This document shows, piece after piece, positions 24,263-26,848 of a DNA stretch of 64,000 nt (the first letter of the stretch is position 1; each line of letters begins with the position of its first letter). The position numbers were made by a program, and so were the translations under genes. Under the pieces are notes generated by a model. It ran no database searches and was not told the DNA's origin. It saw nothing but the letters and a program-made list of their open reading frames with translations. The stretch comes from Nonomuraea angiospora (GTDB lineage: Bacteria > Actinomycetota > Actinomycetes > Streptosporangiales > Streptosporangiaceae): assembly GCF_014873145.1 (NCBI RefSeq), contig NZ_JADBEK010000001.1, forward strand, positions 8,680,001 to 8,744,000, written 5' to 3'.

Positions 24263-26848
24263 ATGCCCTCTGAACAGGATTCGCGAGAGGTGGTGGAGGG
24301 TCTGCTGCGGCGGCCCTTCTGGCGCGACCTCCCGCTGCCCGTGCTGGTCGTCACCGGGGCGCGGGCCGGTGTGGCCGCGCAGCTGGCGGAGCGGTTCAAG
24401 GGACGCCTGCCGTACGCGAGGCCGGAGAAAAGCGCGAACAAATCGCTGGTCGAGCTCGTGGACGCGCTGGCCGGAGCCAACGGCGCCCTCGGAGGCAACA
24501 CGGTCGGCAACACCCTGCTGCCCGCGCCACGCTTCCCGCTGACGGAGTTCGTGTTGTGGGCCCGGGCCCAGCGCGACAAGAAGCCGGAGCAGTGGCCGAA
24601 GGTCAAGTGGCCGCCATCCCCTGACTCGCGGCCCGGGCAGGAGGAGCTCAAGCATCGCTTCAGCGCCAGGTTCGGGGTGCGCCCCAGCCTGCGGGCCGAC
24701 AGCCGCAAGCGGTGGGCGGCGGGCGACTTCCTCGTGCGGGCCGCGGTCTTCTTCGTGCCGGTCGCCACTGTGGTCGCCTGGTGGCTGGACACCGGGATCA
24801 CCGACCTGATCCCGCTGGCGCCCGGCCTGCTCGCATTGCTGCTGGGCGTCGGCGCGATCGCATTACAGGCGGTGCGCTTCATCCGCGGCACGGCCTTCTC
24901 CCGGTGGTTCCGCCGCCACCAGTACAAGGACCTGCGGCGCGCCGCCGGCGAGAGCCGCCCCAGGTACGCGCTGCAGCTGATGAGCGCGTCAGAGCCGGAG
25001 ATCGAGAAGCTGCTGGTCTACGCGATGCTGGAGGACCTGCGCCAGGCGTACCGCAAGTGGCCGCGGATCCCGTGGCCGAGCTGGGGGCGCGGGCTGTACG
25101 CGCTGCTGGTGCTCGACGAGGGTGATCCGGTCCACGCGCGGTTCCTGCGGGTTCTCGATGAGGTCCGGTACGAGACGAACATCGTGCCGCCGCTGCTGGT
25201 GATCGTCGATGGCCCGGGGCAGCCGGTGCCGCCGCCGGCCGACCGGGAGCCGCGGAGCATCGGCGAGGACGTCGAGGACTGGCGCTCGCGCGTGGCGCTG
25301 CGCGGGCCGGAGCCGCGGCTGCGCCTCGCCGGCGACAAGCTGGTGCTGACGGACACCTACAAGCCGCGGCTGAGGGGGGTCAAGGCCCGTGCCGTCGGCT
25401 ACTGGCTCGCGATGGTGGCGCTGCTGCTGGCCCCGCCGCTGTACGTCTACGGCAGCAACTGGTTCGGCTGCGGCCCCGGCATGACGTGGGCCGAGCAACA
25501 GTGCGTCGGCCTGAGCGACAACCTCGCCGAGATCGCCCCCGACCCGTCCCTCATGCCCATCCTCGAGCGGATCAAGCAGCAGAACGAGGCCATCGACACG
25601 AGACAGCGGGTCATCACGGTCTTCTATCTCGGCGTGCTCACCACGTCGCACCCGGGCGACGACCAGACGGGCGGCTCGGCCGGCGAACTGTCCGGCATCG
25701 CGGCCCGCCAGGGGGCCTACAACCGGCTCGGCAGCTGGCAGATCAAGGTGGAGCTGGCCAACAGCGGGCAGTACTTCCGGCACGCCGAGTTCGCCGCCAG
25801 GATGATCAGGCAGCGCGCCGCCGGCGACCCGGACGTGGCCGGCGTGATCGGGCTCGCGTGGAGCAGGACCGAGACGCAGGACGCCATACGAGTGCTCAGC
25901 GACGCGCACATCCCGATACTCAGCACCACGAATTCGGCCGACCTGACGCCGCTGGTCTACCACGGCCGTCCCTCGCCGTACTTCTTCCGCATGGCGGCTC
26001 CCAACTCCGCGCAGGCGCGGGCGTTCGAGCTGTGGCTCGCGCACGGGCTCCCCGGAGGCAAGCCGGTCGCTCCGCGGCGGGTCGCCGTCCTGGTCGAGCG
26101 TGACGCGGAGGACCACGAGCTCTACAGCAGGGACCTCGCGGACGGGCTGGCCAAGGGCCCGTACGCGTCCGCCGGGCAGTACCCGTTCGCCAACCAGGAC
26201 GAGCTGGCCAGCAAGGTCGATCTGGCCTGCCAGGACGGCGCGGAGGTGCTGCTCTACACCGGCCGGGCCACCTTCCTGAACACCGTCGCCGACACCCGTG
26301 AGCACCAGTGCGCGGCCAAGGTGCAGATCCTGGCGGGCGACGACGTCACCGAGAAACTGGCGCAGCTCCTGGTCAAGGAGGACTTCACCAACAAGCCGGC
26401 GATCTCGTTCGTGGCGCTCAACGACATGCGACAGGGGCAGGGCGGCAACCGTACCCAGACGGAGATCGAGAACTGGATCGCGAGCGTCAAGGCGACGGGC
26501 GTGTCACGCGTGCACGCGTGGATGGGCTACGACGCGCTGCTGGCCGTCACGTCGGCGATCAACAAGATCAAGGCCTCGGACGTCGACGAGTCGGTCAACA
26601 TCGCCGAGAGCGTCGCGTACAACCTGCGTGGGCTCGGCGTGGGCGGCCTCATCCAGGGTGCGAGCGGGAAGTTCTACTTCTCGGAGGACGCGGAGTCGCA
26701 CGCCGCGCTCCCTCGGGGGCTCTGGCTGTTCTCCACGGACCCCGCCGCGGGTTCCTCCGACAACGGTCCGGTGCCGCGGGGGAGCTGCACGGTCGACGAA
26801 AAGGCCCCGGGCACCGCCGAACTTGAGGTGAAGTGCTCGTTCGGCTGA
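24263..26848 (+). CDS. Membrane-spanning fusion: P-loop-like cytosolic region plus extracellular type I periplasmic-binding domain
   Basis: An 861-residue protein. Residues 1-150 are cytosolic: [15 protein letters not shown] at 27-41 sits where a Walker A loop would be but lacks GK[ST]. Two helices at about 156-176 and 183-205 form a hairpin. Residues 206-375 return to the cytosol and contain [10 protein letters not shown] (279-288), a Walker B-like strand, and LLVIVDGPG (311-319). A third helix at 376-397 leads outside to residues 400-861, a Leu/Ile/Val-binding-type domain ([49 protein letters not shown]). A membrane hairpin within a P-loop domain recalls KAP NTPases. It probably senses an external ligand; the output is unknown. 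It is monocistronic, with a GC-rich inverted repeat at 24133-24168 upstream. Confidence 0.7.

Follow-up and report, generated by a model that had tools for sequence, protein, structure and literature searches.

A probable single-chain membrane receptor of Nonomuraea angiospora joining a degenerate NTPase-like domain to an extracellular periplasmic-binding domain

The stretch of DNA analysed here, referred to as the window, covers 64,000 nucleotides of Nonomuraea angiospora (contig NZ_JADBEK010000001.1), whose genome is a single contig of 13.09 Mb. A gene in the window (24263-26848, + strand, as for all features within it) encodes a protein of 861 residues which is probably a single-chain membrane receptor that signals through a non-hydrolysing switch. 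We are almost certain of its overall architecture, which consists of a pseudo-NTPase domain, a transmembrane (TM) hairpin, a third TM helix (TM3) and an extracellular type 1 periplasmic-binding protein (PBP) domain of the Venus flytrap type. An earlier note made from the sequence had described cytosolic, TM and solute-binding parts in one open frame, and the frame was found to be intact with all of these parts in place. The first cytosolic part (residues 1-155; 24263-24727) holds the opening strands of an AAA+/STAND-like domain. It is followed by the hairpin (residues 156-207; 24728-24883), assigned by hydropathy in a region of low predicted local distance difference test (pLDDT) scores, and by the second cytosolic part (residues 208-370; 24884-25372) with a helix, the Walker B strand and the subsequent core strands. 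TM3 (residues 371-400; 25373-25462) is predicted to lead to the cell exterior in a topology of three TM helices with the N-terminus inside. The hairpin and third helix had been placed in the note at residues 156-205 and 376-397.

Relatives of the gene were found by a family-profile search in 96 of 394 genomes of the class (two candidates scored per genome). Sixty-five surrounding loci, which are part of the places found, were compared together with the window, giving 66 loci and 897 genes called by a simple codon-usage script in which called starts can be late; two of the loci (L093 and L098) have no called PBP gene. The 66 PBP-module genes comprise 34 long forms (more than 600 aa) and 32 short forms (447-549 aa). 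For twenty-four of the short forms, an NTPase of 606-739 residues is encoded directly upstream on the same strand, with the two genes -43 to 180 bp apart. By sequence comparison the fused gene is akin to these two-gene systems, whose NTPase, mostly with its Walker A lysine, comes from the gene immediately before that of the TM-PBP protein. The split NTPases match AAA_16/AAA_22 under the Pfam cut-offs (best 5.3e-5), carry a GGxP-like motif and extend into a long C-terminal region, both of which are expected of STAND proteins. In a PDB sequence search they matched ClpB/ClpC-like and other AAA+ proteins, mainly over the first ~90 residues, and the choice between STAND and AAA+ is thus not decided by this search. 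In the protein database 176 relatives of the split NTPases were found at E<=0.001; among the 120 listed, the organism, where given, is Streptomyces and the names are hypothetical, ATP-binding or AAA+ protein.

The cytosolic domain of the window protein is, as judged by profile comparison, a homologue of this AAA+/STAND-type NTPase that lacks the Walker A lysine and is interrupted by a hydrophobic hairpin. A profile-profile search of the N-terminal region, which the note had proposed as a check, matched window-family residues 22-321 to a profile of seven split NTPases (Prob 91.3, E 9.7e-7) and, with hhalign, to a profile of all twenty-four (Prob 98.2, E 5.1e-14). The hhalign controls were weaker, at E 0.31 for the reversed family and 0.031 for the best among 40 unrelated families. 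A hidden Markov model (HMM) of the 24 NTPases recognised eight fused N-termini out of 31 (E<=2.3e-7), and the 186 reversed or shuffled controls gave no match at E<=10. Its five non-NTPase matches at E<=1 among the 897 called genes were all long PBP forms; the window sequence by itself gave no match in this HMM test. Chance similarity of the N-terminus was rejected on these reversed, shuffled and unrelated controls. The Walker B strand ending in D/E is kept, with ALLVLDE in the window protein aligned to LLLDN in the split NTPases. Of the two Walker B-like strands that the note had placed at residues 279-288 and 311-319, the first is the Walker B-like strand (residues 279-288; 25097-25126) and the second is a core strand that follows it (residues 311-316, LLVIVD; 25193-25210). 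The GxP motif and the winged-helix or helical C-terminal region, which are features of STAND NTPases, are absent from the window protein as the chain enters TM3 after the core.

Two TM helices (residues 147-174 and 186-207) follow the degenerate Walker A strand-loop and precede the Walker B strand. KAP NTPases carry TM segments inside a P-loop domain, and the comparison with them drawn in the note stands as far as this insertion into an NTPase-like domain is concerned. It fails on kinship, which lies with the AAA_16/AAA_22-like NTPases, and the window protein differs further from KAP NTPases in the loss of Walker A and the addition of a PBP ectodomain. Membership of the KAP family was not adopted, as no KAP match was found at E<=1; the window protein matched no Pfam family at all at this threshold, where the HMMER filters may drop weak matches, and the NCBIfam scan gave no useful match.

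The Walker A motif GxxxxGK[ST] is absent from the window protein, and its position (residues 27-41; 24341-24385) is degenerate. The motif was found in none of the 34 long forms (first 400 called residues), in none of 45 named loci (first 120 residues, with L142 starting past that region) and, by inspection, in none of the 25 rows of the homologue alignment. Among close relatives the loop is shortened and variable (GARAGV, GDTKAV, GEQ..). The Walker A lysine is present in eighteen of the twenty-four split NTPases, with the strict motif in fifteen and GKG in three; arginine takes its place in four, alanine in one, and the remaining called start lies past the loop. The missing GK[ST] reported in the note is thus borne out in the window protein and the long forms, and the loss of Walker A across the fused forms supports its reading of a signalling rather than an ATP-hydrolysing role. 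It is unlikely in our assessment that the protein works as a ligand-gated NTPase that remains active, still binding or hydrolysing nucleotide through a non-canonical loop. Such activity would fit the retention of the core strands, the Walker B-like LLVLDE among them, and the arginine found in four split NTPases indicates that the family tolerates change at the lysine position, but a shortened loop that is unconserved among close relatives argues against it.

The extracellular part is a type 1 PBP clamp, as read from sequence and fold comparison. The type 1 PBP fold was found for residues 449-861 (25607-26845), the only part tested by the whole-model PDB search; the N-terminus was for that reason folded separately. 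Among 14 diverse family members, ten match Peripla_BP_6 and six ANF_receptor (E<=0.1). The PDB matches include the ectodomains of mGlu, GABA-B and natriuretic-peptide receptors, which likewise place a type 1 PBP clamp outside a transmembrane receptor, whereas their membrane and cytosolic parts are unrelated to those of the window protein. In the alignment of 66 rows, the stalk (residues 401-448; 25463-25606) contains two conserved cysteines, Cys403 in 63 of 63 and Cys414 in 64 of 65 ungapped rows. The clamp itself contains an invariant pair, Cys656 and Cys683 (66/66 each), with a near-invariant Arg668 between them (65/66; 26228-26311 for the three). The position of Ser534 (25862-25864) is serine in 62 of the 66 rows and that of Ser558 (25934-25936) is serine or threonine in 64; Asp757 is also conserved, and Asp693 is kept in 44. 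Ser534, position 558 and Asp693 align with Ser, Thr and Asp of the solved amino-acid PBP 4gnr, residues which we take to bind the amino-acid backbone in LivJ-type proteins. The ligand is therefore probably small and amino-acid-like.

These conserved ectodomain residues persist whatever cytosolic module is attached. The 34 long forms were sorted by hand from the joint alignment into 25 NTPase-like and nine other forms. Thirteen of the NTPase-like forms have the hairpin and twelve do not, as judged by hydropathy and inspection. Among the nine others, six carry a different Pfam domain, L085 carries none, L092 looks truncated and L088 lies outside the Pfam scan. The same TM-PBP ectodomain is joined to a Ser/Thr protein kinase domain in L068 (6165-8873, -; Pkinase 1e-45) and L090 (5704-8037, +; 8e-42), to an EAD1 (death-like adaptor) domain in L096 (274-2607, +) and L097 (4016-6451, -), and to a DUF4062 domain in L087 (5590-8151, +) and L089 (5502-7970, +). 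This module swapping is our strongest argument that the ectodomain is a sensory module and not part of a transport system. Together with the split NTPase/TM-PBP relatives, it supports the proposal of the note that a single protein reports an external ligand to a cytosolic NTPase-like module.

The same evidence makes it improbable that the protein is a membrane-anchored solute-binding protein of an importer, with the PBP serving an ABC permease encoded elsewhere and the cytosolic part acting as a regulator or anchor. This alternative draws on the PBP fold, which is that of LivJ/LivK, and on the database entries, as many of the 25 homologous proteins found at E<=0.001 are named ABC transporter substrate-binding protein. 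In a crude motif scan, an ABC ATPase was detected within three genes of two of the 66 (L085 and L077). The scan overlooked two short relatives, L079 (6173-11519) and L081 (5916-11328), that are divergent to two ABC transporter genes each (from Pfam for L079 and from the sequence for L081). The ABC genes at L079, however, carry ABC_membrane, which we take to be of exporter type, and the ectodomain is often paired with a non-ABC NTPase. As the note had observed, the protein is not a lipoprotein, since the PBP lies behind an internal TM helix, and no permease or ATPase adjoins the gene, the Pfam matches of its neighbours including no ABC importer component. An importer was rejected as the first choice on the absent permease, the non-lipoprotein character and the module swapping. 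L079 and L081 belong to the eight short forms without an upstream NTPase neighbour; of the others, L078 is the second gene of a tandem, L070, L084 and L095 come after 2-4 kb stretches without called genes, and L082 adjoins an unrelated gene, as read from the sequence. At L071 (4725-8382), a kinase-like gene converges on a short TM-PBP gene, which overlaps its end, and a second kinase-like gene adjoins, again from the sequence.

Fusion or fission has occurred more than once, since two constraints on the PBP tree were rejected: a single group of the 25 NTPase-fused forms (approximately unbiased test, p-AU 1e-13) and the exclusion of the fused paralogue L053 from the split group (p-AU 6e-6, for a group chosen after viewing the tree). 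L053 (8587-11304, -) lies in the same genome at ~8.87 Mb of contig C1 and is nested among split-type PBPs, as an independent fusion. The window row has a long branch (2.04) in this tree, which was built by a quick method, and its exact position is therefore unsure. Two fused NTPase-like/PBP genes occur in tandem at L067 (6609-12153).

The genome of the window holds three fused members (the window gene, L002 and L003). Searched with the split-NTPase profile it gave 32 places (E<=0.1), led by the fused paralogue at 8.869 Mb of C1 (E 8e-11), the others being short matches, mostly in the P-loop region; the window gene and the other paralogue were not among them. Within the sensitivity of this profile search no full-length split NTPase was found, and an active split partner in the same genome was rejected. 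In the phylum-wide search, with four candidates scored per genome, 241 of 296 genomes match at E<=0.001, and only four have profile-spanning matches better than E 1e-100; the other matches listed are short and mostly within the first ~90 profile positions.

The gene is flanked by a divergent serC-like class V aminotransferase gene (23009-24118, -; PF00266, the name serC being given from the sequence) and a convergent citrate synthase gene (26868-27974, -; PF00285). A scan for sigma-70 promoters, which found none, was also made, and the intergenic region towards serC spans 24119-24262. Pfam matches of the window neighbours are Aminotran_5, Citrate_synt, PNPOx, Penicillinase_R, Rhomboid, UPF0114 and MFS. 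The survey of homologues and neighbours suggested in the note places the gene mostly in this setting: among the 45 named loci (flanks up to 4 kb, some contigs ending inside the flank), serC lies upstream in divergent orientation in 30, citrate synthase lies downstream in convergent orientation in 30, and both are present in 28. The distance to serC is below 250 bp in 25 of the 30 loci, and serC lies within two genes of twelve of the thirteen hairpin forms. A close relative, L099, has serC and no citrate synthase match in its flank. This conserved place hints at a possible connection to central or amino-acid metabolism. At the protein level the nearest relative, at 99%, belongs to Nonomuraea angiospora, and the genera of the homologues, where given, are Nonomuraea, Thermoactinospora, Acrocarpospora, Streptosporangium, Microbispora and Planotetraspora. 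Genes for a CbiQ-like protein and an ABC ATPase (17640-19126; the ATPase by Pfam) lie ~5 kb away, and nothing was seen that would connect them with the receptor gene.

The position beside housekeeping genes in 28 of 45 loci also counts against an anti-invader (conflict) system, in which the ectodomain would sense an external cue and set off a STAND/EAD-type effector response. We consider this doubtful, even though EAD1 occurs on ectodomain relatives and Kaur et al. (eLife 2020) describe, for the variable part of EACC1 two-gene systems, TM segments with an extracellular PBP, and also STAND NTPases in the same setting (PMC7159879, in the part consulted). PADLOC matched no family for the window protein, on which the defence reading was set aside, and gave one split NTPase a weak P-loop match (E 0.009). 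The EACC1 systems, prevalent in actinobacteria, resemble the present one in the order of extracellular PBP, TM helices and cytosolic signalling domains, and STAND NTPases and EADs belong to the same toolbox; according to the same part of that survey, a caspase (or cyclase) forms their constant cytosolic part, next to an EACC1 gene, whereas here it is a P-loop-less NTPase domain. No caspase, cyclase or EACC1 gene was seen in the Pfam matches of the window protein (E<=1) or its neighbours.

Inactive STAND NTPases are reported in other systems of that survey. Its iSTAND ternary systems share a catalytically inactive STAND-type NTPase domain, in some with TM segments, but they are coupled to MoxR and vWA proteins, with no PBP noticed in the sections consulted (PMC7159879). 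GlnH-GlnX-PknG of Corynebacterium provides a precedent for PBP-based amino-acid sensing in actinobacterial signalling, with a membrane protein relaying to a cytosolic signalling enzyme; as far as the consulted part of that source goes, it differs in having three separate proteins, a lipoprotein GlnH, a kinase output and no NTPase-like domain (PMC9769921). Actinobacterial cyclase genes that lie close to PBP domains or are fused with them similarly link a PF13458 domain with a signalling enzyme, but the nucleotide cyclase-like proteins are described as cytosolic and, in the portion consulted, with no NTPase (PMC4886424). Literature searches limited to open-licence papers brought up no recognisable description of a PBP-NTPase pair or of their fusion.

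In the proposed receptor, a small extracellular ligand, probably amino-acid-like, would close the PBP clamp, and closure would be relayed through TM3 to the cytosolic domain, which may act, without ATP hydrolysis, as a docking platform or as a switch in conformation or oligomerisation. More tentatively, the family may represent an undescribed class of actinobacterial Venus flytrap receptors in which one ectodomain is combined with interchangeable modules (a split or fused STAND-type NTPase, a Ser/Thr kinase, EAD1 or DUF4062). The fused NTPase of this lineage would then be a hairpin-split pseudo-enzyme and ligand-operated switch without ATP hydrolysis, located beside serC and citrate synthase and reporting to central metabolism on an extracellular amino acid. 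The database name ABC transporter substrate-binding protein is misleading and is corrected here. If true, the proposal would establish a new type of bacterial receptor that joins a nutrient-binding clamp to a switch NTPase and then to its dead form, the NTPase family in question being one that also underlies plant and animal immune switches. The split, fused and module-swapped relatives would provide a natural experiment on what the ectodomain senses and on whether loss of the ATPase accompanies fusion.
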